The notes under the pieces were generated by a model, which saw only the letters and a program-made list of their open reading frames with translations, made no database searches and was not told where the DNA came from. From Physcia stellaris (Eukaryota; Ascomycota; Lecanoromycetes; Caliciales; Physciaceae), in the NCBI GenBank assembly GCA_018902385.1, contig JABSSW010000024.1, forward strand, positions 186,001-250,000: DNA of 64,000 bases, in the 5' to 3' direction. Below are positions 658 to 32,704 of the stretch, piece after piece (position 1 is the stretch's first letter; every line of letters starts with the position of its first letter). The position numbers were made by a program, and so were the translations under genes.

Positions 658-3600
658 TCATCCTTGCAGGCCGGATAGAACCGAGGACATTTCTGTTGGT
701 GATTGGTCAGTATTTTTCCATAGTGGGCGATTGTTGAGGTGATGGACATGTTTCTTTCGTAGAGCAGATTGGAAAGACTTACCAACAGTTGTCGGATCAA
801 GGGGTCCAAAAAGAGTGGTGAGATTGTATATGATAGCCTCGCATAGCTCAATAGCGGCATCCTTCTTGCCTTGTGCATACTGGACCTCGACGAAGCGTTT
901 ACCAAACTACCATTGCCGTGGAGTCAGCTACATTTCCAAGCCCGAGCCAAGCGTTGATCCGTATGATGTATGGAGGGAAAGAAGAGGAATCGGAAAAACT
1001 TACCCACACAATATCGTCATGCGTCCAAGACTTCTGAGTAGCATGCGAGGACCATAGAACCGATAAGAGATTCTAGGGTGTATCATCAGCAAGTTTTCCT
1101 CCAGCTTCGTTGTTGGTGCTTCTTACCTCCAGCTCGGGCAAGGCATTTTGTTGGCTTAGCAAGCCTACGATCTCCTTCAGTCCATTAAGATCAATCAGCT
1201 TAATCCCTTCTGTAAGGTGATCTGTAACATTGAGGATATCGCTCAATAAGGCAGAAGAGAGACGCTGCATGCGATCCCGCAATTCCATATCTGTGACAGC
1301 CCCAACGACCCCGTTGTTGGCCAATGCCAGACACAAGCTAAGACCAAGCGCAACGGTCTGAGGGTCCTCGTAAGCTTTGAGGCCTTGAGCAATGTTGAAG
1401 GTTGAGTTCGCAACCGCATATGCCTCGCCGAACGCCTTCTCCTTGATCAAGTTTCTAAAGAGATCATTGCCAACTGCGCAGATCGCCTCGTTAACGGAGG
1501 CATCGTTGCTCTCTCTAAGCCGGTCCAACACCTGAGTAAGCATTGCCCACATCGTCTGTTTCGTTGGCTGGACGGATAAAGTTGTGGTTCCGAAAAGCGC
1601 TTTCAATAGCATCCTCTCCAAAGCGTCGACCTCCCTCATTCGCTTACTGGTGCGCAGGATTCCATGTAGACGTAGGCCCCAGTACAGCTTCTCCTTGAGG
1701 CTCTCGGATTCAACGCATCGCTTATAGCACATATTCTCGTAGAGGAGGTCCGACATTGTTGGGGAGAAACCTTTTTTTCCGGACTTATTGAGGTCTCCTA
1801 ACATGACGATGAAGATATAACACTGGGGATCTAGCGACCGGTGTAAGACATTGGACGTCTCATCTATACGTTCCTGGAGTCAGCATTTCCATGTCATAGT
1901 CGGGTAAGCGTTGGGCCACGAGACAAGCACACACCATTCAGGTAGAATTGCCGCTGGGGGTCTAGTGAACGTTGCAAGACGTTGGACGTCTCATCTAATC
2001 ATCCCCGGAGTCAGCAATTTCGTCCCATTGTGGGGTAAGCGTTGGGCCACAAGAAGCACATACCATTAATGGTCTCTTCCAGGAAGAACTGCCGCCGAAG
2101 AATCTCAACAAGATCGGCACCTTGCTCACGATACCCTTCATTGGAATAGATGCTTGCCAACTTGCCAGCAGCCTTCATCAGTTGAAAGGGTGACGTTTCG
2201 GTCGAAATGATCTCGGCTGCAACGCCCTGGAGGAGGTCGGAAACAGCTTTACGGCCGTTCGCAGCATTATCCTGCTGTGCATATAGACGGACCAAAGCGG
2301 CCAAAGTGTCCAGAGTACGATCATCAGAGCATCCAAATTCAGCCTTTACGGCCTCATATCGGGCCCTAAAGAATACAATGGCGTCTCCAATCACTTCAGC
2401 GAAGTAGGCGGTGGGTTTGAGGCTCATTGTACGGTATAGAGCCTCCAGACGAATCTTAGCTATAGCGACGGAATCTGATAGCTCAGGATTCTCAGCCGCC
2501 GTGATCCTTCCGGACGTCCCAATGATATCTTGATAGAGGCGTACTGCTTCGACTTGGTGGGCCTCTTCACGCTCGTTGATGTCAGCAAGTTCCAGTGCTG
2601 CGTTTGTCTTAGTACCACCTGGGGCTTTGAGAAGTTTAGAAGAGGTCTCGTAATACTGCGTAGCTAATTTCCGGAGTGCAGAAGAGTCGCCCCTGTCAGC
2701 TTGTACCAACACACTCCGATGATGCTCATAGAGTGATCGTAGGATATCAGGACTCAATTCATTTTCCCAACCTTGGTAGACGGTTTGCCAGAGTAACCGA
2801 GATATCTTAAGAGCCTTGTCCATTTGTCCTTGGTTGCTGTACAGCTCTGATATTTTAAGGGCGGCGTTGATCTCCTCCAAAGATCTTAGTTGATCCGGGC
2901 CAACCCCTGATAGGTATTCAGGCTGGTTGGAATCGGTCCATAGGCTAATCACCATCGTCAGTGTCATACCAACCTCAGGTAAGCGTTGGGACACAAGACA
3001 AAATGACATACCCAAGAAGCATACTGGTAGCTTCGGCTTTACGACCGCACCGCTGAAGGAACTTAATGTAAGCGGTGGCTACGTCGAAGCTCAGCTTCTG
3101 GCTGTCCACTCCAGAGCGATCATGTGTGGCGTCGGTAACATCCTTCCAAAGACCTACAAGAAGGACCTCTGCTGAAGCAAAGTCGCCCCGAGTCTGATAT
3201 ACTTCGGCCATATGTATCGTGGCAGAGACACGACGAGGATCGGCCTCGTCCATCTATCAGAACATCGCAGTCAGCATTCCAGTCTTTGGTGTGTGTCGAA
3301 TCTCCAATCTAGAGGCTCGGCTTTCAATAGGTGTGAGACATGGCTGTCAAACTCAATGATTGGACAAGAATGCCTGTAGATCTGAAGAGAAAGTAGGAAA
3401 TCAATGAAATATACGAAAGACTTACTGTTTGCTGAGATAGTAGCCAGAGTTTCTCGGCAGGTACCATGATATCACCGCCCTTGTCACTAACGGCCTGCAA
3501 AGCAGCTGCGAGCTTTGCGTTCATATTGGTAGCTTCGGCTGAGCCTGATCCAAAGCGTTCGACCAGCATGTCATGCAACTCGTCGAAGATTCCAATCGCG

Positions 3601-6600
3601 GAAGTCTCATCTCCCTATAATCCATAAAATCAGTCTTGCTTTTCGAGAGAGTGAGCTCACTTTTCGTAAGACGAATGCCCATGCTGGGATGGGTAATCTT
3701 CTGTTCACGGGTGGCGACAAGCTCGAACCATATGACTCACCTTAGCAATGTAGAAATCACCCAAGGCTTCCTGGTACTTGATGACATGATCACTCTTGGC
3801 CCCACACTGGTGTCTCGATGTATCGACCAGGAGTTTTAGCATATCTTCTTTGTAGCCCGATCGACTGAGAGATGTATCGCCTGGTTGACTTGGGGACCGA
3901 ACGCCTGCAGTGTATCGATCACAGTCCATAAAGTTTCGAGCACAGCCACTGGTTACATCGCTAGACATTCCTAACAGATGCTGACTAAGCTTGGCGGCTT
4001 CGTAGAAGTGAAGGCTGGCCTCCGCATATTCGGACTTCCATGCGAGTCTTGTTGCGAGGTTAATCGTCGACTGCAGCACAGACCGGGAACCACTGCCGAG
4101 TGCTGCACGGCGTATCTGCAGCGCTATCCTGTTGGTTTCGTTAGTATCTTCCATGATTGGCCAAGCATTGACTTATAATTGAGAAGGTCTCCGAAAAGAC
4201 ATACCTGTGCATGTTGAGCGGATCAGGTGTGAGATCGGTCATAACCCAGACTTTGGCCTCAAGAGCAGGGAGTAGTGAAGACTCAGGGAAAGTCTTCTTA
4301 ATCGCCGAGGGGACTATGAGGTCTTTATCCGTGTTGTACATGGAAGACCGGCAGAAGTGTATCAACCAAGACTCCGCCGTGTACTCGAAAATGCTATCAC
4401 TCGCCTGAAGCCCATCAAAGGATGAAACGCTCATTGTAGGCAATTGGTAAATGGTGTTGTCTGAGCGTGCCAACGTCAAGAGTCTCATTGTAATGTCGGA
4501 ATGGGCTTCATTTGGTGGCATTAGCCCACGGCCCTGGCTCGACATCTGTTGTAGCGTATCTCTTATGACATTGTGGCGGATACGGACGACCCCTTGATCT
4601 TGGACTAATAGGTTTACACTGGAGAGGATGACAGAGTCGGTAATGCTGGTACCAGTGTTCGCGGCAGGTTGCTTCCGAGAAAGGCTGCTAAGAAGGAGTT
4701 GAAACTCGTAAAGGCTCAAAGGTCGTAGGGCAATCGTGAGCCAAGAAAGAGCATACTTTGTCGGTGTCGAATCCGCATCGAGACCTGAGACTGACCGCTG
4801 GACTACATGTGCCACAGACTTGGGGGTCCTCTCAAGGGTAAGCAGCATACCGTCTGAATTGTTCTCTTTCTGGAGCAATCCCATGACTAGCTCTGCCCAA
4901 ACAAATGACCCATTGGCGTTACGTGCGATGCGTTCACAGATTGCCGTAAGTTGATCTTCCTGCTGCTGATTGGATAGAGCGGAAGATGCAAGACCGTTCT
5001 CGACCATGTGGAGCATGTCGCTATACGTATCATCCGTTGTGATAGATACTTTTACCGAGGGTATCCCCGATGGCCTCGAGAAAGGACGAGAGAAAACCAG
5101 TACTCTGATGTTGTTAGCGCTTGCAATTGAATCGTATAGGCGTCCAAGAGTATCCAGAGCTTTAGGCTCGCCACCCTCTATAGCATCTAGTCCGTCAACG
5201 ACTATGACCGCATTGGTCGACGTCCTAAAGGCTTGCATGGCAGCTATGAAGGCTTCCCATAAAGCTTTCTCCATGCCATAGAGATCTTTGGAAGCTGAGA
5301 CATTGTCGTACGCAGTGGACATGAGGCTGATCATCTTGACGTCTCCAACGCTTTGTCCAAGGATCTGTGAAAGTAGGCTTTTCAATAGCCGAATTGACGA
5401 AGTCTCGAAGACAAAAGCAGGATCTATACAAGCATTATCAGCATTACCAAATAACCTGGACATCAGAGAGAGCCAACTGACCTATCGAGTACGCCAACGT
5501 TGTGTAGTCCTTGCCCAGCATTCGTCGCTTCAACATATCCAGCGTCCAGAGGAACAGCGAAGTTTTGCCGCAGGCTGGGTTCCCAGTGACCTCAAGAGCC
5601 TTGTCTTGACTCCTGAAGAAACCTGTAAGCTGTTTTTGAAACCAGCTGCACGAGAGACCGGGATACACGCGGTCAAGACCGTAGGAGTCGAGGTTGGTAC
5701 TTCGGACCCGATAATCTTGGGAAATGAGCCAATTGTTGATCATCTGATAATCGATTGTGGTGCCTTTAGAGACAGGACGTTAGTTACAGCGGTGATAGAA
5801 GCTGTCTAAGAGGCTTACCTTGTAGTTGACGATCCCATACCAAACTCATAAGTCGTTCTTTTCGGGCACGGAAAATAATAGCTACCGGTAGGAAGAGGGA
5901 CTCTGGGCTAGGGGCCAGGGTGGTTGTAGGATCATCTATACAGGTTTTTAGTGTCTACATGCCTGCCAAAGCAGGTTCCATACCAATGACACCTCGCTGA
6001 TAAGAGATAGTAATGTCCACGAGCAACGATAGAATGTCTGAGTATGCCTGGCCCAATTCACGTTTTGCTTCGTCCATGGCTCCGAGCACATTGCTGAAGC
6101 GATGGAACATTATCAGGTCAAGGCTTAAGACATAAAGCACGCCGAAGGCTTTCTCCAGAGCTGGAGCTTGACTGGAGGTAAGCTGGATGGTCGTTAGCAA
6201 TGACCAACCCTGTAGGCACTGTGGACTTACCTCAAGTAGAACGCGGCAACAGTCCCAGATCAGCTCAGCAACCATTGAACTCTGCCGCAGGAAGGGCTCA
6301 ATAAAATGCTGATATTGGGAGATGTGGACGGCAAAGGACTCGGCATCCTTCAAAGCCATGTCCCATTGGCTTCCGCTGCGTGGCAGACGGGCCAGTCGTT
6401 CAGTAGCAATGTAAGTCATTACATCATGGAGCGATGCACCGCTCCATCCGTTCTGCATGCAATCCAGCTCATCGGTCAACCTCTGACGAGCCGATTCGAG
6501 GAACTCTTGGAAGCCGGTGTTTAGCGGTTGATTTGGTGGGCTTGTCTCGACGATCATTCGCTCTTCATCGTCTGACAACTCCCAAGTCGAGTAGAAGGGG

Positions 6601-6617
6601 TTTGAGGTAGGAGACAT
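658..6617 (-). CDS. NLR/STAND protein: helical N-domain, NACHT NTPase, TPR-like repeats
   Basis: The model has about 14 exons and encodes roughly 1,620 residues. It starts at the ATG at 6617-6615 (MSPTSNPF). The N-terminal 200 residues resemble the DUF7708-type helical domain found before fungal NACHTs (SMVAELIWDCCRVLLE). The NACHT follows with Walker A GNPACGKTS (near 5590) and Walker B AVIVVDGLDAIEGG (near 5190). From about 4128 downward come TPR-like helical repeats ending in the block FVEVQYAQGKKDAAIELCE. Exon joins checked by phase: 6231/6182, 5993/5881, 5819/5763, 5482/5423, 4205/4128 and 3741/3615. The 6182-6230 intron is short, a multiple of three and stop-free. The frame ends at 658-660, soon after PTTVEMSSVL, where relatives usually continue, so the C-terminus looks truncated. 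Known fungal NLRs act in non-self recognition; that role here is inference. Several of its introns are introner-like elements. Confidence 0.85.
907..1003 (-). repeat. Introner-like element, diverged copy (NLR intron)
   Basis: This 97-nt intron has donor GTAAGT at 1003 and acceptor GGTAG. It carries a diverged form of the shared internal blocks: ATCAACGCTTGGC, then TTGGAAATGTAG, then the branch block GCTGACTCC. The 26-nt distance from CGCTT to CTGAC matches the better copies. Its 5' half is unrelated to the other copies. Confidence 0.6.
1864..1934 (-). repeat. Introner-like element A (NLR intron, 71 nt)
   Basis: The intron runs from GTGTGTGCTT at 1934 to TATAG at 1864. It contains CGTGGCCCAACGCTTACCC, then ATGGAAATG, then CTGACTCC as the branch region. 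It is nearly identical to the intron at 1995-2063, and the exon between them is also duplicated. Confidence 0.85.
1995..2063 (-). repeat. Introner-like element B (NLR intron, 69 nt)
   Basis: The intron runs from GTATGTGCTT at 2063 to GATTAG at 1995. Its internal blocks are CTTGTGGCCCAACGCTTACC, TGGGACGAAATTG and CTGACTCC. TTGTGG and CCACAA can pair to form a hairpin around the AACGCTTA core, consistent with the structured character reported for fungal introner-like elements. Confidence 0.88.
2945..3011 (-). repeat. Introner-like element C (NLR intron, 67 nt)
   Basis: The intron runs from GTATGTCATT at 3011 to GATTAG at 2945. It shares CTTGTGTCCCAACGCTTACC exactly at the core. The branch block is ACACTGACGATGG, more diverged than in A and B. 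Flanking exon phases join LLG to the next TPR exon. Confidence 0.85.
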
Positions 6618-7647
6618 GATGATAAGTGGTAGTGAATAGGTTGGGGGCTTTGCTTTGGGGAGAATGGTGAGAAGAGAAGAGAAAATGGGGTTTTGAAAAC
6701 TGATCCTATGGCGACTGGGGTTTCCATAAACGGTAGGTACGAATCTATTCTTCCAAAGCAGGTACATTCCCCCACCTCGTAAATGGAAGGCACCTTCTAG
6801 GCTGGCTCTTCATCAGGTAAAGCTAGGACTCTACCGGCCAAGTCAAAGCCGTCTACTGCCATCGAGTACAGGGAGATTTGAGCATCCTATACACATGAAT
6901 CATATCTCCTCAGATAACCATCGTGAAGAAGATTACCACGACGCAAAAGCCGATCTACTGTCAGATCAACGTTACCCGTCGTGCGGAACTCCCTGAAGAG
7001 TCAATATGAAATGGGCTCTGCGAGTTTGCGCTTTCTGAGTGGGGTTCTCACCCCTTGCTATAGATCTCTGCATCCGTACCTATCTGTGGCGAGCCAAGGA
7101 AGGCGCACTGCCCTTACGATTTTACAGGCAGTACAAGCCGGAGAAGGGTTTACCTTACGTGTGTACAAATGAGAAGGTGCTATCGCTACATAGTTACCAG
7201 CAGTGAGGAGTCGCATATTCATTAGTGACTCGGAACAGAATCTTTCCGACCTTGAGTTGGAGATATGCCAGCGCGCATCCCACTCTACTGTACGGATCCA
7301 TTCCTCGACTGCTTGACTACTTGAACGAGGAGCCGGACATCGATCGTATGGCTTACCACTGGTTGGTATTTTCATGTCATGCGGAAGGCAGATGGAAGAT
7401 AGCAAAAATGCACGAAAGAAGTGAGAATAGGTATCTTGGCACTCGAGGAGTCGAGGTCCGAGGGGTCACAGCTTGCCCAACGGGCCGCAAGGCTCGGGCC
7501 GGATCCCGAGGCTTGGCTTCCTGGAACCGTATCCGTAATTACGCCGTACGGATACTCTCGTACTGCCTCCAATTTTTCGCCATACACCGTGCTAGTAAAC
7601 AAAAGAGATTCTGATGACTCTCTCCTCCCCGGTTCCCACCCTTCCAT
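6618..7647. other. Intergenic, no supported gene
   Basis: This stretch of about 1 kb lies between the 5' end of the NLR gene and the 3' end of the gene at 7648-8765. Several overlapping short frames exist on both strands near 7058-7640. None has a recognisable domain or consistent splice signals. The NLR promoter should lie in the first few hundred bases. Confidence 0.5.
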
Positions 7648-8765
7648 CTAGCATTCTTCCCAGACCTCATACACCGAGTCCACAATCCTACCCATCTCCC
7701 CAGCGGGCAACCCGAGGCAGCTTGCGACATCAGTCAAAATCCTCAGATCCTCTTGACCCTCCAGATCTGCACGGCACGCAGGGAGTTCAATAACCAAATT
7801 GGCAACTGCGTCGCTCATCTTCCGGAACATACGATGGCCCTTAATCCAATGATACTGGCTACTATCGTAATTTGTCAGTACAGCCTTACTCAGCAAGTTG
7901 GTTGACCTCGACGAAAGGAAAATACTTACTTTCTCTCTTTTAGCAGCCAGTCCTCAAGGGGGATTTGCAACGTCAACTGCCTTTTCCAGAAATCAACCTG
8001 CAGCCGACACGTCGTGATCATCCACACCCTATCACCTAGCTGCGTACTTGGGATTTTCACCGGTGGCTCATCGACCATTCCTCGGATAATCACAACCTTG
8101 TTGGTCGGAATACGAGTCCCTGGTCTCATTGCTGTAGAGGTGACAGTACTGATGCTCCTCAGTGCTTCGTCAGGCGCAATCACCCGGAAAAGATCCCGCC
8201 TCGCATTCTCCCGCTTCAGATTAGCCATTTCGAGCTCATGGCCATCGTAGAAAAGCATCCGCTTCCCCAACCGGCCAGACATCGTGATGTATGGCATGGT
8301 CTCGTGCGCCTCGCCAGCGGGGATGACCATCACAATCGGCTCGTAAACCAGATCGACAAGCAGACATGCTTCCGCTGTCAGGACTGCGGCGACGCAATGT
8401 CTAGGTCTCTCGCCCTCCTCTGGACAAGCAGGATCGAGCTCCCAGCTAGCCATCGTGTGGACTTGGTCCGCAAGATGGATCAGACCGGGTGTAGAGCTGT
8501 AGGATGCCCTGAGGGAAGCCGCTACAGCGGTGGAGAATCCGACGCAGGTGGCGAAGGGGTGGATTGCTTCCCAAATCGCGGATGGGGATGGTTTGGGGTT
8601 GCGACGGATGTAATCCCATGTGTGCCATGAACTCCAGTTCGTGCTTGCCGCGTGACGCCGGGTGATTTGGTCGGCGATCTGGATTGCGTGGGTGAGGGTA
8701 GCGCTGTATGACGACGCTGGGATGGTATTGACGCCTATAGTGGCCACAGCCAAAGGTGAAGACAT
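7648..8765 (-). CDS. Hypothetical protein, about 349 residues, two exons
   Basis: I do not recognise a named family. Exon 1 runs from the ATG at 8765 (MSSPLAVATIG) to 7930, followed by GTAAGTATT. Exon 2 starts at 7861, or 7858 with an alternative acceptor in the same frame, and ends with VYEVWEEC at 7648. The two exons join in phase and total 1,050 nt. The protein is soluble-looking with no signal peptide. It has a Trp-rich early segment (SSWHTWDYIRR), a central region with DPACPEEGERPRHCVAAVLTA, and a later beta-rich part (VVIIRGMVDEPPVKIPS). A clean intron and a long frame argue that it is a real gene. It lies between the NLR and Med5 on the same strand, but about 1 kb from each, so it is independently transcribed. 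Confidence 0.65.
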
Positions 8766-9805
8766 TATTGGCCTGTCGGAATATATGAAATAATCTCGGA
8801 CTGGTAGAAAGAGTAGGCGCTTCGGTGTTTACCTTCCTATGCGGTGTGGGGAAGTATGATATTTCCAAGACAGAATGGATTCTTACTACGGAAAATTTCG
8901 CGGTGATATAAAGAAAGACCAAAGTCAAAAAAAAGACCGGCATTTATAGGCTATACCTCGTGAATTAAGACATCATAACAATCCCTTTGTATTCCCATAT
9001 CACCAAGTTGTGACAACCTATCCTCTCTTTGTCAATAAGTGATAACAATCTCATGTGATAGCTTTGTCCAAATATACTCAAGGTAATATGTTCATCACTC
9101 ATATAGCCCTTCTCTAAGGATAGATGACTAGAGATCAGTGACCTCAGCGTGAGAGTTGGAGCAAAATATGAAAAGTAAATATATACAAGGGGATCGGAAG
9201 TTCAAGTCTTCGTCTAGGCTCATAACCTCCAGAGAACTCTGACCAAAGGTCCAAATCCCCAGCTCATTAGAATGATGCAGCAGGAGAGGGAAACTATCTG
9301 TTAAATCACTTTTCGAGTTTGCCATCCCAAATAAATCAACAAAGAAAACCCGATTACCTGCATGGAAGTACATGCAATCAGCCTGATAAGTATTAGCGAC
9401 AGACTTCTCCCTCCCTCGCAGTGCATCTATCTTCCAACGCCGATTCATCTGCATTGTGTCGAGAACAGGTACAAGAGTTGCCAGGATGATAATGATGTCG
9501 GTAGCCATACGTGATTTGCACGAGTAGCGAATGAGCAGCGTGGCGTGTTATATTTGGAGGTTAGAGATAGTGTTTCTAGGTAGTAGTAGGAATTACATGT
9601 CCTATGGCTGGTACGAAGTGATAGAAATTTTCATGCATTCATCTTTAGAGATGTACGATTATCCAACTCGTAGGATGGTGCCCCCTTTATCTCATTTTCG
9701 TCTACATTGTACCACGAAGGGGTACTCGTCTTATCACGGCCACCACTCCAGAGCATGGGATAACCAAGTAATGTATGAAATTCTCTATAATTCCATTCGG
9801 ACGCT
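8766..9805. other. Intergenic with one doubtful small ORF
   Basis: This is the spacer between Med5's 3' end and the unknown gene's 5' end. A minus-strand frame at 9128-9508 could encode 126 residues with a hydrophobic start (MATDIIIILATLVPVL) and a hydrophobic end (CIYLLFIFCSN). It has no family resemblance and no splice support, so I do not call it as a gene. AT-rich DNA around 8980-9120 looks like the upstream region of the unknown gene. Confidence 0.4.
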
Positions 9806-12800
9806 TCAAGTCAAGCTCATAAAATCACCAGACCCCCCAACCATGAAATCCATAGCGGCAGCTTGTTCATTAGCCTGCCCAAGAACGTCATCAATGTCCT
9901 CCGCCGGCAATCCTTCCGGATTATGCGCCATAACCCCAGCCATCGGATCATCCATAACAGCAGCGTTCTCAGCTTCATGCGACTGCGGTGCAGTAAGAGA
10001 TTCTATGCGTCGGTGCAATCGAACGACCATGACAGCGCGGCTATGATCGTTCTTCGAGAGCTCGAGGATATTCTCCATTTCGGCATTCAAGGCGTCTCCG
10101 AGGCTAAGTTGACATTTATGGCCCCCGACTGGTGGGTCGGGGAATTGGGCTTGCGGTGCGAGGATCATCACGGAGACTACTTCGAGGGCGGACTCGGTGT
10201 CCAGCATCCCATCATGGGTAACGTGAACCATTATCTCGTCGATTAATGTGTCGAGAACGGTTTTTGCACCGAGTATCAGCACTGAGAGTGCGATCTGGCG
10301 ATGCGTGTAGCGAGGTGGCGACACGTGCACCGACGCGACACCATCCCACAGGATCAAAGATTGGACTGTGTGTCTCAACGCAGCCTGCACACCACCGCCA
10401 GGAGTATTCGACCATGTCTCCATTTCCGTCACAGCTGCAGCCTTGTAGCGTTGTTTCTGCCCATGACGTGACAAAATCTCAGTTAGAGGCTTGATGTCAG
10501 CTCGTTGTGGGTGTCTGCGGTGGACATACGCTAGCGCTTCATCCAACGATTTAGCAACAATGGAGAGTACAGCAGAATGCAGAGCTGAAGAGTCACTCGA
10601 GATGGAGCGAGGCTTGAGCAGAGTAGTGAGAGCTGGCATGATAAAGTCAAGGCTCGTCGACTGCTCGGTGGTCTCCAGTAATCTTTGGGCGAACCAATTC
10701 AGACCTGCGACCAGCGAGGGCAACAGGAATGGCTCGAGCAAATATTCTAGACCGTCCTTCAGTGTAGTCATTGCGAGAAATCCGGCTTGGCATGCCCTCA
10801 GACTTTGATCCAGGAGAGTGGCTATGATCATGTGAAAGTCACTGGGGCTAGATGCAGCCATCAGCTCATCATTGATGCCTTCATTCTCATTGAAAAGTCC
10901 CCGTATCCAGGCCCCTAATAGCTTGTTCTCTTTTTCGCTCACATCCTCCAGGCTCTTGGCGCTGGCTGAGTAGGCCATATAATGCATGACAAATGAATCC
11001 AGCGAACTAGCACCCAGCTCGTAGCGCTGCAGGTCGAAACGATGCTGAATGAGCATGACTAAAAGCAAAATGCTCCCAAATTCGTCGTATACAGGTTGAT
11101 GTTCACCCTGGTCCTCATGCATTGGCCAGGAGTCCAACATGTTGCAGAGAGGCTTCAACAGATCATGGATTGAAGTGAATAACATCAGCACATCTAGCGT
11201 GAACGGTCTTCGGGATAAGCCGTTGCATACGATTTTGAGAGTCATGGTATCTTTGGTTGCACAAAGCGATTGCATGATGTCCACGAGCGCCGCCGCGATC
11301 TCGCCGGCATTACCCTCCATGTTCTCGAGCTCTTTGGCGAGCTCTTCTATTCTCGCAGGGTTGGAAGTGCATTGTTCCACTAGCAGATGCTTCACATAAC
11401 GGCCACCAGTGGGCAGATTCTGCATGGGATCTTCGCCAAGGAGGGTCTCAATGCTTGTCTCTGGTATTAGATGATGCAAGGCACAGGCAATCAGAAATTC
11501 GACTCTGGCTTCTGAAAGCATACCGTTCCTGCCAACAGAGTCGAACATTTGTGAGAATGATGGGAAAGCGGCTGGATCGATTTTGGAGAATGCTTGACTA
11601 ATACAGTACTCGACCGTCATCGGCTCGAAGAGCATTGGCGCGTAAATGAGCAACAAGCTCGGTATTTTGTTGACAAGGAATGAACGTAACAGCGTCAATG
11701 TCTCAATCGGCTCTGATCGATACATTGCGTTTGCAAGGGTGTCAAAGGCCGCCAGTATCAGGTCAACGACAAGCGCAGTCACGTCACCCTTGTATCGCGC
11801 CCCAAAGTAAATCATTACCCTTTTATCATCCAACAATGGTCGATCATAGATCATTGCGTTAAGGTAGACGTATGCTCCTGCGCGTGTGTTGACGGGCGAT
11901 GTGTCGAGTACACTTTGCTATTCATCGGAGTCAGCATCTCCACTCTCAGTTAGCCGTTGAGCTACAAGACATTTCCTGAGCTTGTTGCTCCCGTAATAAG
12001 TTTACTGCTCGACGGCCGGGACGAAAATGAGGGCCGATCGCAGCCCTACATTACTTCCTACAAACCCAAAAAAAATTGAGAAGAACATCTGGTCCAATGC
12101 TCCATTCATATCAGTTTATGTTCTCCATTCCCAAGACGTAAAAGCTTGGTCTGACGACGGTGCACCTCTTTTAATGGTACTGAGTTTTGTCCAAGGCGAA
12201 TGAGTCGGAAAAAGAAAGAAAATTTCCAAACCTCGTACCTGAAATGTAAGGGCTCCAAGGTTGACGGTATCCACATCGATATCGGGGTTGGGCGGATGTA
12301 TATCTTCATCGCCGACTAGACCATACTGCTTTTGCCAAAAATCTAGATTTGTGGCTGATGGACGAATCAGAGTCAGTACTTCCACTCTTGGGTAAGCGCT
12401 GGGGCATAAGGACAAGTCTCACGAGTAATCTATTACTGGGACATGTTCTATGCTGCCATGAGAAAGGGGAGGAAAGAGGACAGAAGAGACGTACCAAGCT
12501 GTATGTTAGTCTGCATTGTTTGGTTGATAAGAACACCCAATGAACGGCCAAAAGCTTTCCTTACGCTCTTTTTCTCAACCCGGTGGTTATGGCCTAACGC
12601 TTTCTGCGCAGCATTGGTACCTAGCACAGCAGAAAGAAGGTATCCTAGAGATTCCGAGCCAGGGTACATGGATATCCAGGGAATTAGGCAGTGAATTATT
12701 GCAAAGACTTCCCTACCCGTCTTGAGTAATCCTTTAGAGATCTCTGAAATCAGCAATTGAACTATCATCGCTGTCATGGTCGGCCTGTGCATATTATTGG

Positions 12801-20591: not shown

Positions 20592-20744
20592 AGACTATGA
20601 TTGAAAAGTGTGGCGCTATACTCTTCTCCCTGTTGAGGAGAAGAGTAAGATGTTCGACATCATTGGCGACGACTGCTATCATAGGGCAACTATAGCTCTT
20701 CTTATAACCTTACTTCCGAACATAAGACACATTGCATCACAAAG

Positions 20745-21197
20745 ATGGATGACGGTGGCAATGGAGATGTTAAACCAACGATCAAGAAGCTCGAACAATT
20801 GATGAAAGACAAGGGGGGCTTCAATACGGCGGAGGTGGAGGCAGTGAACGCATGTGGGGAAGGACTGACACTTCGATCCTGGCGAGACGTCAGCATCGCC
20901 GTCAGCCGCAAACACATGCACAAGGAAGAAGGTCGGTTTCGGGAGAGCGAGGAAGACTGGGATCACGAAGAGGACGACGACGAGATGGAGGATTTGCAGG
21001 CGGGACACGGCTCACACGTTGCCGGCGCCGTGTACGCGCGAAGCATCCGGGAGGGAGATGGGATGCTGGCGAGCACGCGGCAGAAGTTCCGCCGCGTGAG
21101 CGAAAACTGGCATCGAGTGTTGGGCTTCGAAGTGCCTGGGGCCAGCACGGCCGTCTCAGGCAAACGCAAAGGTGGAGGCAGTGATGCGAGAGACTAA
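20745..21197 (+). pseudogene. Relic of fungal RecQ-like/telomere-linked mobile helicase protein
   Basis: An open frame of 150 codons (MDDGGNGDVKPTIKKLEQ to GGGSDARD). The segment LTLRSWRDVSIAVSRKHM, an acidic stretch, LQAGHGSHVAGAVYARSI and KFRRVSENWHRVLGFE resemble, from memory, the module that precedes the RecQ-like helicase in many fungal transposon-borne or telomere-linked helicases. No RecQ helicase motifs follow. The frame ends at 21197, and further related-looking sequence (TNVVPKSFTSEQ) follows until about 21264. I therefore read it as a remnant. Family assignment rests on pattern recognition only. Confidence 0.5.
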
Positions 21198-24124: not shown

Positions 24125-25697
24125 TCACCACTTTGGCTTAGCTTTGCCAGTGCTCCCGAAAGTGTCGTCGTTCCAGCCTGACCGAGGTGCAGAACTGGAC
24201 GATCCTTCACCCGCTGCTGCGTTCCATGTGGGCTGATCCACCTCGTAGTTGCCTGGATCATTGATAATGGCATTGGCACTGGGCCACAGCGCATCGCTGA
24301 CATCTCCGCCTGAAGCCTGGAAGCCACCAGCACCACCAGAGCTTGTGGTCGCATTCCAATCCGATGCCGTTCCTTCTTCAGCTTCAGTTAGGGTGATCAC
24401 AATGCGCTCATCGGGAATGACATAGTCCGTGGGAATGGTGAATGGCACGTCATATGTCTTCTGCACATCCTTCCAGCAGATCTCAAGAGGTGCCTCGAAC
24501 ACGAGATCCTTGGGACTGAGCCAATTGAGGTAATCGGCGATGTACGGGCTGGAGTGGAAAAATCTAGTAGAGAGTCAGTTTGAGAGCGTCAGGTTTGGGA
24601 TACGATGATAACTCACCGCTCTCCATCTACCACGGAGAACCGACGAGAGACTTTGGTGAGGTCGTCGATGTCGTGGGTGACCTGCTTTTTCCCAGCAAAC
24701 TCTAAGTCCTTGCTAAGTCCCTTCGTGAGCTTCGACGCGATGATAATTAGGACCAGCATAGCTCGGGTGCACGCAACATTCATGCGGTTCTCGTTGTCCA
24801 CAAATCCAAGCTCGTTAGTGACCACGGTGTCCAGAATTATCATCTTTGCTTCCATGGATTGGAAGCTGTCCACGGTGTAGACCTTTGGCAGCGCATTACG
24901 AGAGATACCTTGTTTTATTGCCATGCACATAAGGATTGAATTGATCAATCCCCGCTGTTGCCCATAGGTCGTGAGGATAACGACGTCCTCCATGGGAAAC
25001 CCCGCATTCTTGCGCATATCATTCACCATATGACAGATATATGAGGCGCTCTCGAGGTTGAACCTCGACAAGGACCCTGTCTCACGGTCAGTACTGAGAT
25101 GAAACACCATACTCGGACACTTACTATTGTTCCTCGCGCAATCTCCGTCGACTGTCACAGCGAACAAGCGGCAGCTTTTCTCTGGCCGGTTAAAAAACGT
25201 CTTGAACCATGGAATATACCCGGCAGGAAGCGAGCGACGGTTTGCGGCAGATGTGGCTGTAAGCTTAGACATGTATGTCCGCTTGTTCTGTAACAAAATT
25301 AGCAAGGCGATACAGCGAACCCGCCAGGACTTACCGGAAAGCAGAGGATGTGGCGATGCATCCGGCTACAAAGGCTCAGCTCGAAGTGAGGGAAGTGGGA
25401 TAGATACAGGCGGGCGAAGAGGCTGAGCTGCATCTGGGCTGCAAAGGGGTTGACGTTGGCGAAACGAGATAGGTACAGCGGACCCAGTTGCGCGAAGTCG
25501 CCGATCATCCAGAGTCCCCGAACCTTCTCGTGGTGTCGTAATTTGGTGAGAGCAATCCACGTGTCAGGCTCTGGAATCATTGCTGCTTCGTCTTGGATGA
25601 TGACGATGCACTTGGCTTTGTCCCCGAAGTTCTGCTTCACCACATCGCAGCCCATATTATTAGCTGTCGTGACGAGCACGTGGGGGTCTTTCATCAC
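24125..25697 (-). CDS. SF1 (UPF1-like) helicase, C-terminal part, three exons
   Basis: C-terminal half of a superfamily-1 helicase. Motif II is IVIIQDEAAMIPEPDTW and motif III GLWMIGDFAQLGP. Later motifs are ILTTYGQQRGLINSI, KVYTVDSFQSMEAKMII (motif V) and NRMNVACTRAML (motif VI with the arginine finger). Two canonical introns near 25345-25276 (GTAAGT to TTACAG) and near 24618-24562 (GTGAGT to CTACTAG) join the exons. The C-terminus is Gly/Ser/Trp-rich and ends GSTGKAKPKW at 24125. The frame is open without an ATG up to about 25870, and no Walker A motif is found upstream. The 5' part is therefore lost, or lies behind an intron I cannot place. The usable start may be the ATG at 25697. Confidence 0.65.
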
Positions 25698-25902
25698 TTC
25701 AGCGTTGCCATGGCGGCAACAAACAGCGGAGCGACCTTTGTCTTCGGCCGTCCAGCTGTAATAGTATGTGTCCGCGTTTTCCGGACGCGGTGAAGATGTT
25801 AGAGTTGGATTAGGAGTGTTAGGAGGTATAGCGTAGGTGTAACTGATGGTGAATAGTATACTGGATTGGAGTTGGGTTTATCTGTGATCAAGGGAGTATA
25901 AG

Positions 25903-25960
25903 GTTATATATAGAAGAGTGCTGGTTGCTGGTTATATAGAGAAGAGTGCTGGTTGCTGAT
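25903..25960. repeat. 28-nt tandem pair
   Basis: Two copies of a unit reading GGTTATATAKAGAAGAGTGC followed by TGGTTGCT lie head to tail, a short way upstream of the helicase piece. Confidence 0.7.
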
Positions 25961-28286
25961 ATGTAAAATGGATAGAGGTTTTGGGGAGTGGAGGGGGTTT
26001 AAGTAGTCAAGCATGTCGCTGTTTGTTGTGAATGGAGCTGAATGACGCAATCTGAGCAGTGAACATCTCGGTCACTGGAGTGAAACTTGGTGTGATCGTG
26101 CGGGGGATGAGGTGGTGAAGTGAGCTGGTGAAAGATTGGGGACTGTAGTGTGTTAAAATGATTCACCCAGGCAAGTTCACCGCTGCCTATGATTGGACAC
26201 GCTAGATGATGAGTAATGGAGCAAAAGGGCGCAAAGTATGTAACTACGAGTACTTTAGGCAGCGCCAGTGTTAAGGCGCCACCAAAATACTATGGGGCAG
26301 GAGCATAGCAGCTGCCAAGGACCATTCAATATTCCAGGGCAAAACCCATGCCAATTCATTACATAACAGTAGGCTATGCTGTCATCTGACTCATTCCCGT
26401 CACGATGCTCTAGTGATCGCTGTGATTAAGAATGGAAGGTGCAAGGTTACGAGAAGGTGAAGTGAGGGTGTGAATAGATGACACAGGCAGGAAAGGCGAA
26501 CTGACTCTTTGCCCGAAGTCGGTTGAACGTGTTTCCAGCATTTCGAGCGATGAGGACTCCAGCGCGGAATTGATTCTGCCTGAATGATGCATTGGACAAC
26601 ATCAGGTCACGATTGAGACTGAAAGTGAAAGAAAACCCTTTTTTCCACCTAAATCTTATCACAAAAGATACGAACATTATAAGGTATCATTTCAGACTAT
26701 TCAGATTAGCCTCTTGTCTTACAGGAAATTCGCTTTCTCGGCTTTGCATGAAAAGGGCCAATGACCAGAAGCTGTGGTGGAGTAGATGGCCACTGCTGTG
26801 GCAGTTTCGGCATTGGGATTCGGTTGAGATGGACACGAGATTCTCGTACATTCGTTAGGAGTTAGTGGCCATTTGTAAGGAGTCAACTGGAAATATAAGG
26901 CAGACTTCTCCTTCTTCTCTTCTTCCTCAGCTTTCGCAGCCTCGCAGGTTTTCGAGGTTGGCTTTGCTCCCTCCCTATACTATCTCAAGCTGCCGCCTAT
27001 ACATTGGGACTTTGCCAGCGCTCAGGGGCATTGGGCTTTGTGCCTGGCCGAATACAGGCTTCTAGGCATATCCCGGCACCAGCGGGGCACAAAGCTGTAA
27101 ATGGACTCAAATGGAAGCATATAGGTCACTCTCTAGGTCTTTCGGCGCCATCCCAGGTCCTGACTGATGTCCCGCCATTTGGTGTGGCGCCAAGTCGATA
27201 CACACGTATCATTTTTTTACAAAGCATGTGATTGTGATGAAGGAGCCATAACTGCATGAGGTCGTCCTGAGTCGGGTATTCGGCATTTTGTAAGAATATA
27301 TCCATACAAGAATGCCGTCCAGTCCACGGAAGTATGGCATTACTTTAATAACAGTCTGCTAAGCGCTGCGATGGATTGAAATTCCCTTTCCAAGAGCTCC
27401 GCGCTCATCCGGTAAGGCAGGTTGGAGGATCATAGACAACCTGTGACTCTCTGTCAGCGGCTGATGGAGTTGTAAGTCTTTCGGAGTATGCTAACATACT
27501 TTATCGGCCTGGCAGATTTTGCCTCTGAGGCTCTGAGGCAAGCTTTGGAGAAGTGGTACGGAGAACACGTTATGACTAGAACCAATTCCGGAACCCGCTG
27601 GCGTTGACGGATACGATGAACTCAATGTGTAACACTGGCCTGCTGAAAGAGTGGTAAACATTTGCCAGAAGGGGCGAGCTGTAGACCTGACGAGCGAGGA
27701 AGGCTGAGACTGATTATATGAAGGATACGACAGCTACAGTGAATTTGTCAGCCCATGACCAGACGAAGAGATGGTGAGCATCAACTAACCGGCCGTTCCA
27801 GGTTCGAGATGGTTTGTGTTGGACCTGAAGCGGACAGGTCGTTAAAAAGGGGTGGTAGCAGTGCGTGTAGTCGACGGTTGGTGATGACAAGTAGTACGGT
27901 CGACTAATATATGTGCGATCTGTGTAAAGCATATTGTAGGAATCTTTGGGCAATGGATTTCACTGAGGTATGCTGAAAGCTAGCTAATAATTTTCAGCTG
28001 TAGCGATTCAAGAACGTAGATTGAGGACAGCACTGTGTCTTCAGTAAGCATACAAGCTAGCCGCCAAATTATGTTGATTGCAGTCTCAAATGCATCAGAC
28101 AAGAATATCTGGTCGTCTCCTCTCCCTCCTGTTCTGGAATGACCAAGACTCGCGCTCCAGCAATATAAATTGGAAGGTGCACCTGTCACGTCGGTCACCA
28201 GGGTTGTGTATCATCAGGGTTGAAGAGATCGTAGAAAGCACTCCGAATTACTTACACTTGATATTCCATCCACCTAACTCTGAATG

Positions 28287-28319
<33 letters not shown>
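28287..28319. repeat. (ATT)n microsatellite
   Basis: About 11 uninterrupted ATT units in intergenic DNA. Confidence 0.95.
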
Positions 28320-30145
28320 AATGGTAATCTGATGAGCTCCAACCCAGCTACAACAATCAGGTGTTTATGAAATATCCTCGCAAAATCCGAAATTACTTGG
28401 TTGTTAGCTAGTGATGTTCAAGCCCAAGCTTTCTATTTGAAGAATGGCTCCTCATTATCTTCTACATACGAATGATCAGTGTTCATGCTAGATACATGGT
28501 CAAAGTTAGCTCGAAAATGTGATAATCTGATGGTTGGTTTGCATTTTTTTTTTCGCTACCAACAATTTGTGTTCTAATCATATCTTAACCCTACAAAAAC
28601 GCAAAGGGATTTTATATCGGTCTCGTTCTAGCTCTAGATGTCTCCTCGCTCCTCTCACATCTAAAGTCTAAGCTAGCATCGCTTCATCGATGCTGCCCTT
28701 ATATGTCACCTCTAGGTGATCTGGCCTGGACGAAATTGATCTTGGAAAGGAGGTGCTTGGAGATGCAAATACATTAGCCATGTGTGGGATTAAAAAGAAC
28801 TAATGTTATGTGACGCATATTTGGAATTGAGGCCGTTCCAAAGTCGGGTACCCGTGTGCTCATGCCGTTTCGGTGCTTGAGGGAGTATCCAGGGGTGCTG
28901 AAGCATTGAGCATTCCTGCCACATGAATAGACACTGGATCGCACAGGAGTTGAAAGGAAGTAGGGATTGATAGGCAACGGAAGGAACCGTAGAACTTGCG
29001 GCAAGTTTCTAGGAACCACGATTTTGAAAGTATTGAGTGCCTTCTTAAGACATACCTCAGCAATTCATTAAGGTAAGAGTAAACAGGGTATAGAGCATGT
29101 AGTCATCGCCTCCATAACGCACTGGGTCAACAGACTACCAACATTCCCATACCATCCGAAGATATATGGCATTGAGATGCCACCGATGGACAGAGCCGTG
29201 GGTTCACATAGAACATTCGGAGAATATCCAGGTAACACTGCCGTGATTACAGGCTTGAGGGGGTGGGGTAAGACGCCGAAGGGACCGTATGTGACTAGGA
29301 GGGTGTTTTTCCCCCTTTTGCTCTCCCACTAAACAATTTCTCAAGACAGCTCATCTCCGGACATCCGAAGAAGATTCATGATTGGAAGTACTATCATGAA
29401 ACAGGTAGGATATGGCTGGTTGAGACGGCGCTTTGAGACGAAAAGGATTCACGAAGTGGTTCGTCGGGGCTATCGTACGTGGAAAGGCAGAGGCAGGCTT
29501 TAGCTTGGATCATGGCGTCTGGAATGATTGCTTAGAATTAGTCATTACTGATTAGCTGTGACGACTCAGGATCAAGAGAATTTACTGTTCCATTTCTTAC
29601 CAAATAACATGCCCAGCGCCATAGCAAATAAAATCTCGCGGGTCAATGGATGTTCTCCAACTGTTACCGGATCAAGGTTTGCATCGAGAACCGTCGTTCC
29701 ACGATCAGTGTCCTACCAGGAGCGGATTTGATAGAATAGGCAGGAGCATGTGGAATGACCAATACACTTCAAATTTTCAAAGGCAAACAAAACATGTCGG
29801 GAACCATGGTACGCTGCGGGTGGTGGCCTCTCGGGGCAAACTCAAAGCTAACCAAGCTCACGGTATCCACGTTGCAGTGGAGTGCCATCTGAACCACGTT
29901 TACCCCGATTGACGAGACCATGGTTGTACAAAATTATAAGCTTATTCTGACGTTCAGTGTCTAAATATTCCACACTGTAATTCCATTTGGAGCCCCAGCA
30001 ACTGCTCACTATCTCAGAACGTAGTGCAATGCCCGGCAGTAGCTCAAGATTACTCAGCGCATATTTCCCATGCACAGAATTTTACAGAAGTGCCCCCTAG
30101 CTTTGTTATTGCAACTCATGGCTGGGAAACATGTTCTGGGGATCA

Positions 30146-30745
30146 CCATCCGATCTTCCCGCGTGGCCCAAAGTAAGTATTACGTTGATCCTACTCTGGC
30201 ACGCTCACGTGTCTTTGTTTACATCCCAGAAAGTTAAACATATGGGACGGCCGGTAGATACACAAGGCGCTAACCGTATTCTAGTACTTTCCTTTGCGTT
30301 CCGTGTACTCAACCAAACATGATGGCCGGTAGTTGCATGTCGCCGTGGCCATGCTCTGGTGCTTTCACTTGTTCTTCTTGCAACGTGTATAGTAAATCAT
30401 ATGGCATGGCTAGTAGGTATGTTGGCGAAGAGAGTATCATCAAACCTACCTCGCAGGCTCCCAGTCGATTGATCTGATAAATTGGCATTATTCAGCAATC
30501 CCTAGCCATCCCATGGTAAGGAGCTCGAGCCAAGACTGCCAAAACCTAGCAATCGACCGAGACCGTGCTCAACTATTGCCTGAAAGTATGTTTGTTAGGT
30601 TTGAGGCGTGCAGTATCCCCAACGAAGACTCCTTTCCATCCGAACTTTCCGCGTGGCTCAAAGTATATGTCCATGTGGACCACGCGCTAAGCGTGTTCTG
30701 GTACTTCCCCTGGCTTTCCGTGTACTCAGTCAGATATGCCAAGTC
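30146..30745. repeat. Diverged dispersed repeat, two to three copies
   Basis: Copy 1 (30146-30322) and copy 2 (30635-30745) share CCATCCGAWCTTYCCGCGTG, GCGCTAASCGTRTTCTRGTA and TTCCGTGTACTCA. Copy 2 lacks about 70 nt in the middle. A further shared piece, AATCGACCGAG..TGCTCAA, occurs near 30550 and 30762. Differences are mostly transitions. Confidence 0.6.
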
Positions 30746-30973
30746 CGCCAGATACCCAGAATCGACCGAGTGCTCAAAAAATGCCAATTGAAACTTTGTT
30801 TATTGACCGAGCAGGTCCGTCGAATCGCCGTGTGAGCCACGCTTGCCAGACTGCCCAAGCATATATTCCCTCTCTCCCTCGCCCTCCTCTTTTCTCGTCC
30901 TCCTCACATCTCATACTCTCTGGTACGTATATGTGGTTTTTTGCCCCTGAACCCCTGAGTGGCACTGCTAACC

Positions 30974-32704
30974 ATGGTAGCTACAATGTCGTCAAACACA
31001 TTCAAGCACTCTTCATCTCACTCTTCCGCTTCTGCCTCACTAGAGGCTTGCCTTCCGCAAGGGAGTGTCAAGTCTCGCCCGGCAGTTGCGTCCTCTGTTC
31101 TCTCTGAGCGGTCTCGTGGTAAGTCATTCTCCTTGTGCATCAACGCTTATCCGGCTATGGCAATACTGACCTGGATTACTATAGCTCGCGCACCTTACCC
31201 TCGTCCATGGGCCCAAATTTCACAGGGCAACTCTCGCAGTCCGTCTCTCACACAAACGGCTGCACCTACACTCATTCCAAAACCACCACCACCACATTCT
31301 TTGGTTTCTTCGAGGACTCGTGCTTCGAGGAGCAGCACATCGGCCGGGGATACTCCACTCTCTCGTATTCCCGTCGCCAAGTTCTCAGGACAGCAGCGCA
31401 CGCAGCCCAACGGCCAAGGCTCTCTGTCCTCTACAGTCTCTACCCGCAATAGTCACAAGCGTTCCGAGACTGGTCGGTCCGCCCTGGCAATCACTCTTTC
31501 TGCCTCGGCCTCCGACGATGACTCTTCTTCAACATGCTCTTCAGCATCTTCAGCAGCTGGCTCTTCAGCATCTTCAACAACTTCAGCAGCTGGCTCTTCA
31601 GCATCTTCAGCAGCTGGCTCTTCAGCATCTTCAGCAGCTGGCTCTACAGCAACAACTGTCTTTTCTGGTTCTTCTGGTTCTTCTGGATCTGGTTCTGGTT
31701 CTTCTGGATCTGGTTCTGGTTCTTCTGGATCTGGCTCTGGCTCTCTGGATCTGGATCTGGATCGCTGTTTCACTGCAGCAACTACACTCTCTACCTGGTT
31801 GTCTCAATCCTTGGAATCACTCTCTCTTACCAAGGACGACCAACCTACTACTGGACGCTTGGCCACCTCCGAGCACATCAGCAAGGGCGAGCAGCAGGCC
31901 TCGCTTGGGATTCCCCGAGCCAAAGGCAGCCGCATCCCTTGCCGCCAACACTCTTTTCGGTCTTCGACCACCACACGCCTATCTTCATCGGCATCACTGT
32001 CACTACAGGAACAAGTCCATGCCAGGCTTCGCGCAGAGTGGAATGCGGTAGAAGCAAGCATGGCAGCAGCCGCCGACGATCGGACGCCAGGTATGTCTCT
32101 TCCATCTTGTCTTCCCTTCCATCCCGTCTTTCCTTCCACCCAGTAGTACCTTCCACCCTGTAGTACCTTCCACCCCGTAGTACCTTCCACCCCGTAGTAC
32201 CTTCCACCCTCCACTACCTTCCACTCTCCTCCACCTTCCGTCCTTCACCAGCTTTCACCCTCCTCCACCCTCTCCACCCTCCTCCATCCTCTACACCCTC
32301 CTCCACCCTTTCCACCCTCCTCCAGCCTCCTCCACCTTCCGTCCTTCACTACCTTCCACCCTCTCTACCTTCCATCCCATTCTTCCTTCCATCATCACTG
32401 ACCTCTTCCAGTCTCTAGCAGACCACCGATCGCGCGGCGTGACCTTCCCCAAGACCCCTCCGCCACTCTCGACAAGCCTTCATCAGCTCCCACACTACCT
32501 CCGCCAGCTAAGAAGTCCTGTCTTCGAAAGCCCGGTAGTGTCCGCCCTGTCAAAGGGTTGAGATGGGAACCTGATGCGAGAGGGAGGTGGAATTCAGTGA
32601 AGGTCACTGTCTACACAACTGAGCGGTGGATCACGCCGGAAGACCAGCACGAAGAACCTCAACACTTCAGTCAAGTTCAGGAAGGGGAGGAGGAGTTCTT
32701 CTAG
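30974..32704 (+). CDS. Serine/glycine-rich low-complexity protein, about 447 residues
   Basis: I do not recognise a named family. Three exons fit in phase (30974-31118, 31185-32090 and 32412-32704; 1,344 nt). The ATG at 30974 (MVATMSSNTFKHSS) is chosen; a second lies 12 nt downstream. The N-terminus is Ser-rich and basic. The centre contains an Ala/Ser repeat (SSASSAAGSSASS type), a Gly/Ser repeat (GSGSGSSGSGSGS) and LDLDLDR. The C-terminal exon has the most ordered-looking part: PPPAKKSCLRKPGSVRPV and GLRWEPDARGRWNSVKVTVY, then an acidic end (QEGEEEFF). KGLRW-type motifs sometimes occur in regulators of phosphatase or cell-cycle proteins, but I infer no function. Intron 1 is an introner-like element. 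Intron 2 is a minisatellite. Confidence 0.65.
31119..31184 (+). repeat. Introner-like element F (66 nt, plus strand)
   Basis: The intron runs from GTAAGTCATT to CTATAG. It contains CTTGTGCATCAACGCTTATC, then ATGGCAATA, then CTGACC. This is the same block order and spacing as the NLR and Med5 copies, in an unrelated gene 18 kb away and on the opposite strand. It is a multiple of three and stop-free in frame, so retention would add 22 residues. Confidence 0.8.
32140..32400 (+). repeat. CT-rich minisatellite inside intron 2
   Basis: The 321-nt intron 32091-32411 is filled with a degenerate 15-18-nt unit (GTAGTACCTTCCACCC), first as near-perfect tandem copies and then as CCTCCACCCT variants. The branch site CTGACC and CCAG acceptor sit just after the array. 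Confidence 0.8.

Follow-up and report, generated by a model that had tools for sequence, protein, structure and literature searches.

Seven introns in the window, the 64,000-nt stretch of the Physcia stellaris genome analysed here, are very probably copies of one introner-like element (ILE) that was inserted repeatedly and then decayed; judging from the sequence, we give this reading a probability of about 0.92. The mobile intron family is probably a further family of the known fungal ILEs. The introner interpretation was proposed in the original prediction and is supported by many further copies throughout the genome and by controls that match less well than the introns. As we picture it, the element would be a canonical spliceosomal intron of ~120-150 nt that supplies GTAGGT as 5' splice site, CTGAC as branch point and CAACAG as 3' splice site from its own sequence. 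It would have entered protein-coding exons repeatedly, in the sense direction and without a target-site duplication (TSD), after which the copies would decay through substitution and internal deletion.

Seven related introns in the window

Two profiles were used to score the window. The 5'-selected profile was built from 40 of the 43 genomic places picked by the element's 5' end alone, with the core unused. The 46-intron profile was built from introns outside the window, and a test with it is partly circular because many of the 46 were originally found with the window's own core. The features are listed below, with bit scores for the 5'-selected and the 46-intron profile, in that order.

907..1003, minus strand: putative introner copy, diverged; 14.7 and 13.0 bits
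1804..1863, minus strand: exon stretch after intron 1864, duplicate of 1935-1994; common ATGAGACGTCCAA, boundaries by eye
1864..1934, minus strand: putative introner copy, compact; 22.2 and 29.6 bits
1935..1994, minus strand: exon stretch after intron 1995, duplicate of 1804-1863; common ATGAGACGTCCAA, boundaries by eye
1995..2063, minus strand: putative introner copy, compact; 21.3 and 23.3 bits
2945..3011, minus strand: putative introner copy, compact; 13.6 and 19.3 bits
3254..3425, minus strand: possible, more diverged copy, unproven; 7.7 and 11.5 bits
11918..12238, minus strand: putative introner copy, adjoining the Med5 exon, whose long 5' part is unrelated to the family; 29.4 bits over model positions 63-117, and 36.2 bits
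12355..12494, minus strand: putative introner copy, full length, assumed to lie in the Med5 gene too; 22.8 bits, and 51.0 bits over model positions 1-145
31119..31184, plus strand: putative introner copy, compact, in a Ser-rich gene; 14.7 and 22.0 bits

All seven introns predicted from the sequence have GT...AG ends at these coordinates. The host of 907..1003 is assumed to be the gene with an NPHP3_N domain further up, Med5 is identified by exon 9809-11917 (8.3e-95), and at 31119..31184 an open frame of 53+319 codons runs across the splice. With the 5'-selected profile, the top seven matches in the window were exactly the seven introns (29.4-13.6 bits), as against 9.7 bits for the best match in 20 shuffled windows and 0.5 bits for the reversed window. 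For the 46-intron profile, the best of 20 dinucleotide-shuffled windows gave 12.1 bits and the reversed window 1.9; the weakest intron, 907, was outranked by a match of 13.8 bits on the opposite strand, an echo of the 12355 intron. Shuffled and reversed sequence thus matched worse than the introns. The possible eighth copy, predicted to end at 3254, fell below the best shuffle with both profiles and is unproven.

The predicted spacing of 22-27 nt between CGCTT and the CTGAC branch point holds in all seven introns, five by script and two, 2945 (24 nt) and 31119 (22 nt), by eye, the script having matched the wrong CTGACTCC there. The claim that all seven carry the same ordered blocks stands as to family similarity, which is real, but the blocks vary more than the prediction says: an exact CTTGTG occurs in three of seven (1995, 2945 and 31119), and so does an exact CAACGCTTACC (1864, 1995 and 2945). 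Likewise, the four compact introns of 66-71 nt do belong to the family, but that length is not the full element (~120-150 nt), and two of the four, 1864 and 1995, are not independent. These two introns are 82% alike over 66 columns, and each is followed by an exon starting ATGAGACGTCCAA, so that 1864/1995 represents one insertion plus a tandem duplication; there are therefore at most six insertions among the seven introns. The duplicated exon-plus-intron unit is ~131 bp, with 1995-2063 the upstream and 1864-1934 the downstream copy. Duplicated exon and intron lying side by side, as expected for intron copying by tandem genomic duplication, were found at 1864/1995. We read the compact forms as internal deletions of the full element.

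Copies throughout the genome

Genome-wide searches with the core, the 5' end and BLAST found many more copies, as the introner interpretation had predicted, and the introns belong to a multi-copy family, as do fungal ILEs. A 26-nt core, allowing up to 3 mismatches, matched 91 places vs 0 for the reversed core, and the 5' end matched 43 vs 2. Core or 5' end together marked 119 distinct places, 15 of them found by both, from which simple capture-recapture gives ~261. Full-length BLAST found 22 places, the best besides the query itself at 7e-51, and the merged match lists hold 137 places, matches judged to be chance excluded. A gapped core pattern gave 28 places vs 5 reversed. The bare CAACGCTTACC was rejected as a family marker (38 places vs 22 reversed); this 11-mer alone is weak, because 12 of its first 30 loci had no profile match of at least 13 bits in a 3-kb piece. 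BLAST with one older copy as query found no match besides itself. The only 5.8S match came from an rDNA copy that is rich in AT and apparently mutated by RIP.

The copies range widely in completeness. Among 20 regions picked by the 5' end alone, 12 scored at least 14 bits and 10 matched the model from position 1 to at least 131; 8 of the 20 showed little similarity beyond the 5' end. Some copies are not working introns: of the 22 BLAST places, six are missing a splice site or one end (C48:98082, C79:88377, C3:391695, C40:305864, C32:242782 and C3:1222101), and convincing frames seldom flank these on both sides; a further two, C21:74273 and C21:74393, are arranged in tandem and have no clear acceptor. 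The two most similar full copies share 95% identity when gap columns are ignored (93% by BLAST). Copies less than 3 kb apart lie on the same strand in 7 of 7 pairs.

Two chance sites and one site that was impossible to delimit were excluded, and introns were then delimited at 66 places. The 52-row alignment left out 16 of these and added two window introns; 12 of the 66 were dropped from the TSD test and 9 from the frame table.

Element ends, reading frames and the origin of the copies

Full copies run from GTAGGTC to CAACAG over ~120-150 nt, and when aligned they show one simple donor. Similarity stops at the GT and the AG, the exons outside being different. Similar introns, alike up to both splice sites, sit in unrelated genes. 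All 36 full-span copies start with GT and end with AG, partly by construction. Splicing leaves an open frame in 33 of the 36, vs 6 when the intron is retained and 26 and 19 when the junction is shifted by 1 or 2 nt; the introns in this test were set purely by homology, although the model had been trained on introns for which an open frame was one criterion of donor choice. Judged by sequence, then, removal keeps the reading frame, and splicing in the cell would be expected. At C23:552970 the frame stays open just 1 codon past the homology-defined acceptor. A Pfam domain spans the junction in 5 of the 10 host pieces scanned (chosen from 41): sugar transporter, F-box, GTP cyclohydrolase II, mitochondrial carrier and haem peroxidase. 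The hosts' Pfam domains differ, and Med5 is a host in the window, in agreement with the prediction that the host genes are unrelated.

A non-autonomous cut-and-paste element of the DNA-transposon (MITE) type that happens to be spliced is an unlikely source of these introns. The ends of the element are partly complementary, with a mean duplex energy of -13.0 vs -8.1 kcal/mol when the 3' end is reversed and arms of ~10-17 nt by eye, and a clear host frame is missing around some degraded copies, both as such an element might show. However, neither mark of DNA-transposon-type introners, TSDs or terminal inverted repeats, was found. In 54 of the 66 delimited copies, the set used for this test, the TSD maxima did not exceed those from permuted flanks, the insertions being seamless. 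In the 15 most complete copies only 4-7 of the first 25 nt agree with the last 25 nt once these are reverse-complemented, hence there is no true terminal inverted repeat, and full-copy similarity ends at the splice sites. Repeated insertion of an ILE is preferred, and copying would most likely start from the intron RNA released by splicing, which would reverse-splice into transcribed DNA or RNA and be converted to DNA; the one observation that points to this RNA route is the missing TSD. It is less probable still that a repeat inserted, or gene conversion acted, within pre-existing introns. The 11918 intron, with its family 3' part joined to an unrelated 5' part, could be read in that way, but full copies are alike from donor to acceptor, and six paralogues of the sugar-transporter host can be aligned gaplessly across the site of one insertion and lack the intron. 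Insertion, and not later conversion, would then be the origin of each copy.

Two further explanations are already contradicted, the second for the family as a whole. Constraint on a shared functional RNA motif, such as an intronic ncRNA or splicing enhancer, would account for the nearly fixed distance of CAACGCTTACC from the branch point, and seems most improbable. In the 5'-selected copies, identity to the consensus is 0.57-0.64 in the core, 0.53-0.65 in the middle and 0.79 in the branch-point stretch; the core is kept no better than the middle, and the shared interior therefore reflects copying, as originally proposed. Neither the window nor any of five loci gave an Rfam match. RNAalifold found no pairs in 52 copies, and in 17 mostly full copies 13 pairs, 4 with two-sided change, at only -3.4 kcal/mol; folding overall is not exceptional (mean z about -0.4), and RNA structure as the cause of conservation is unsupported by either analysis. 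Least probable of all is that the sharing arose from host genes or exons being duplicated locally, or from spread inside single genes. Duplication did occur at 1864/1995 and in the C21 tandem pair, and in the C3:860746 gene 6 of 10 pairs exceed the 80th similarity percentile, but the hosts are unrelated and the mean percentile over 23 other same-stretch pairs is 0.57, little above chance. Local spread within a gene was accordingly set aside; it concerns mainly tandem pairs, with a lean at C3:860746.

Relation to known introners

The origin of new introns is a long-open question, and the mechanism by which ascomycete introners are copied without TSDs is unsettled. As with the introners of Micromonas and Aureococcus, introns have multiplied genome-wide. 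The Capnodiales ILEs of Zymoseptoria tritici, Fulvia fulva and Dothistroma septosporum are multi-copy canonical U2 introns inserted seamlessly in unrelated genes (PMC4457414, PMC8469720, PMC3510045). The present family resembles them in that recent copies stand alongside decayed ones, a single gene can hold two copies, and the element is partly self-complementary. It differs in that its best full pair is 95% identical, whereas 98-99% is reported there for active families, and in that its overall folding is not exceptionally stable; the likeness is drawn from the described features. The ascomycete introners of a 2022 survey, e.g. those of Alternaria alternata, are described as inserting directly, with no TSD or TIR (PMC9860276), and the present element likewise has no TSD and no true TIR and brings both splice sites. 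Some algal introner families in the same survey have TSDs and/or TIRs, neither of which was seen here. The Hypoxylaceae sister stwintrons and cropped sister introns (PMC8469720) are also proliferating and seamless, with complementary arms, and functional only on the coding strand; the introns seen here, by contrast, are single and simple, and their arms are much shorter, ~10-17 nt by eye vs 45-55 nt. In the literature CAACGCTTACC was found in five papers; going by their titles, none deals with introners and one deals with rDNA introns of lichens.

Elements of this kind are already known in fungi, and the surprise is limited accordingly. The family extends from 95% identical to barely recognisable copies, some stretches have been hit several times, and empty sites in paralogues are at hand for at least one insertion, so that gain, decay and insertion rules are measurable. 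A tentative and rather doubtful extension is that a large part of the ordinary-looking introns here might be decayed members of this one short family, which would travel via spliced RNA and return to the same genes again and again. If this were true, a single genome would show how introns are gained, how they decay into regular ones and how they escape RIP.

The seven introns of the window

The original prediction held that seven introns of the window, positions 186001-250000 of contig C24, are copies of one introner (introner-like element, ILE), an intron that multiplies as copies. All seven stretches are present with GT...AG ends, and they were scored with a first profile HMM, which was built from 46 introns, all outside the window. 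The introns and two flanking features are as follows.

Window features (introns by start, with first-profile score)
907, minus strand: intron, 13.0 bits
1864, minus strand: intron, 29.6 bits
1995, minus strand: intron, 23.3 bits
2945, minus strand: intron, 19.3 bits
4144-5481: stretch matching NPHP3_N (3.8e-07), assumed to be a more upstream part of the gene that holds the first introns
9809-11917: exon adjoining intron 11918, matching Med5 (8.3e-95)
11918, minus strand: intron, 36.2 bits
12355, minus strand: intron, 51.0 bits
31119, plus strand: intron, 22.0 bits

Five other window exons were scanned and gave no family match. As controls for the first profile, the best of 20 dinucleotide-shuffled windows scored 12.1 bits and the reversed window 1.9. 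Because many of the 46 introns had been found through the window's own core, the shared interior block, the profile test was repeated with independent selection. The second profile was made from 40 of 43 places chosen by the element's 5' end alone (its first nucleotides, GTAGGTC onward), with 150 nt taken from each and the misses left in. It ranked exactly the seven introns highest in the window, at 29.4, 22.8, 22.2, 21.3, 14.7 (907), 14.7 (31119) and 13.6 (2945) bits; the top score among the 20 shuffled windows used before was 9.7, and the reversed window scored 0.5. With both controls below all seven, the introns are one real family. The next match, at 3254, had been put forward as a possible eighth copy and is unproven, scoring 11.5 against the best shuffle's 12.1 bits with the first profile and 7.7 against 9.7 with the second. 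The shared blocks are present but looser than claimed, CTTGTG and CAACGCTTACC each being exact in 3 of 7 introns; the CGCTT-to-CTGAC spacing is 22-27 nt as described, two of the seven values having been read by eye.

The reverse complement of introner 12355 (window 12367-12450, plus strand) also matched the first profile, at 13.8 bits, and weaker opposite-strand matches of the same kind occur in 5 of the 46 outside copies. Given these matches, some older forms are partly self-complementary.

Genome-wide copies and their anatomy

The further copies that the prediction called for were found in the 43.97 Mb (147 contigs) searched.

Places found in the genome (counts are lower bounds), with counts for the reversed pattern
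33-nt core, up to 3 mismatches: at least 16; reversed 0
31-nt core with ambiguities: at least 40; reversed 0
26-nt core, up to 3 mismatches: at least 91 (at least 9, 13, 23 and 46 with 0, 1, 2 and 3 mismatches); reversed 0
Exact gapped core: at least 28; reversed 5
First 20 nt of the element alone: at least 43; reversed 2
BLAST with one full copy: at least 22, query included

Since the 26-nt core counts rise with mismatch number, the 3-mismatch cut probably misses further, more decayed copies. The core and 5'-end searches had 15 copies in common among 119 distinct places, giving a capture-recapture estimate of about 261 copies, which is likely too low because both searches favour young copies. 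The merged match lists, with chance-looking matches omitted, hold 137 places. The bare 11-mer CAACGCTTACC was a weak marker (at least 38 places versus 22 reversed). At one fetched locus (L007:1306-1522), a 97-bp tandem repeat of 2.2 copies contains CAACGCTTACCCGACTTCGGAA, and a second locus (L017) has a single similar stretch; no intron structure was seen in either.

Full copies of the young subfamily run from GTAGGTCTTTTCGGAGCAAT to CAACGCTTACCCCAGTCTGGCAATGCTGACTCCGAAATTTGCAACAG over about 120-133 nt, and an older form reaches up to about 157 nt, with CCCGAGANTGG in its core. The closest full-copy pair is 95% identical over gap-free columns. Of 20 regions retrieved by the 5' end alone, 12 reach at least 14 bits with the first profile and 10 are matched over positions 1 to 131 or further; the other 8 show little past the 5' end. 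Compact copies like those of the window are missing the element's middle, and locus L095 has an internal gap of the same kind; the compact forms are probably deletion derivatives.

The shared interior reflects copying, as had been proposed. The apparent conservation of the CAACGCTTACC block comes from its use in finding copies. In a small set of 13 aligned rows (at most 11 over the core) from the 20 regions picked only by the 5' end, identity to the consensus was 0.57-0.64 in the core, 0.53-0.65 in the middle and 0.79 in the branch-point stretch. The core is thus no better kept than the middle, and the CAACGCTTACC block is under no visible constraint in this small sample.

Behavior as introns and copies within one gene

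In a frame test of 36 copies with profile-set ends (GT start and AG end in 36/36, partly by construction), where open means 20 or more codons on each side of the junction, predicted splicing left the frame open in 33, compared with 26 and 19 when the junction was shifted by 1 and 2 nt and 6 when the intron was kept. Family copies therefore behave as introns, in that predicted splicing keeps the reading frame. By the same 20-codon measure 49 of 57 introns were open, with best-frame phases 0/1/2 of 12/21/16. Ten spliced host pieces, chosen from 41, were scanned; one Pfam domain runs across the junction in five, and three have no Pfam family. Of the 22 BLAST places, six have lost one of their splice sites or ends, in most cases with no convincing two-sided frame, and a further two form a tandem pair that has no clear acceptor. 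At the young copy C23:552970 the frame is open for only 1 codon past the homology-defined acceptor. Copies with lost ends or frames may be remnants that lie in pseudogenes or between genes.

The empty-site search covered one insertion, in a sugar-transporter gene (C15:618942) whose protein is split into two matches at the introner, at residues 141-145. Six long, stop-free matches were taken from the 36 in the genome, and all six paralogues run gap-free through the site. In some other paralogues the match is interrupted close by, near residue 130 or 148, and these breaks were taken for the paralogues' own introns.

The window's seven copies are real but are not seven independent events. An exon beginning ATGAGACGTCCAA comes after both intron 1864 and intron 1995, which are 82% identical over 66 aligned columns; the pair is one insertion followed by tandem duplication of exon plus intron, about 131 bp. 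The 23 other same-stretch pairs have a mean similarity percentile of 0.57 against copies elsewhere, so that most copies sharing a gene appear to have arrived separately. Copies less than 3 kb apart share strand in 7/7 pairs, where 0.96 pairs are expected under uniform spread, and those less than 10 kb apart in 12/16. Two stretches with more than one copy are as follows.

C3:860746-862702: 2-kb stretch, five copies on one strand, somewhat closer mutually than average
C21:74273-74471: tandem pair of introner copies, 5' part missing from the second, no clear acceptor

In the first, 6 of 10 pairs lie above the 80th percentile of similarity; it is either a heavily hit gene or a product of local copying, and some local copying may have occurred.

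Mode of movement

Neither the 54 copies tested nor the 15 most complete show a target-site duplication (TSD) above the level of permuted flanks. Of the 54, 42 have G as the final base of the exon, and no other insertion-site preference was evident. A true terminal inverted repeat (TIR) is absent, the ends matching at only 4-7 of 25 positions. Pairing between the first 30 and the last 35 bases is stronger than in the reversed control, at -13.0 versus -8.1 kcal/mol. Evidence for co-variation between the ends is weak: 8 of 2000 permutations were as good as observed for all 44 copies, and 57, 289 or 455 of 2000, by lengths used, for the 31 older ones. Whole-intron folding is ordinary (mean z -0.41 for 13 young copies, -0.35 for 31 older), and RNAalifold gave zero pairs for a 52-row alignment and 13 pairs, 4 with two-sided change, for one of 17 rows.

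The family resembles ascomycete introners without TSD or TIR, which are established (PMC9860276, PMC4457414, PMC8469720). The family did not turn up among the papers listed by searches for introners and for the core letters. It is probably a further member of this known kind and may already stand in a supplementary table.

An RNA, reverse-splicing route is proposed for fungal ILEs, as described in PMC8469720 and PMC9860276. We infer such a route here: the element would be copied via RNA and reverse splicing, with which the seamless, TSD-free insertion is compatible. A single 5.8S match turned up in the assembly (L134, contig C41, about 45899-46052), within a strongly AT-rich part of the rDNA that has the appearance of RIP mutation. 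Should RIP act in Physcia stellaris, the introners' short length may permit them to escape it.
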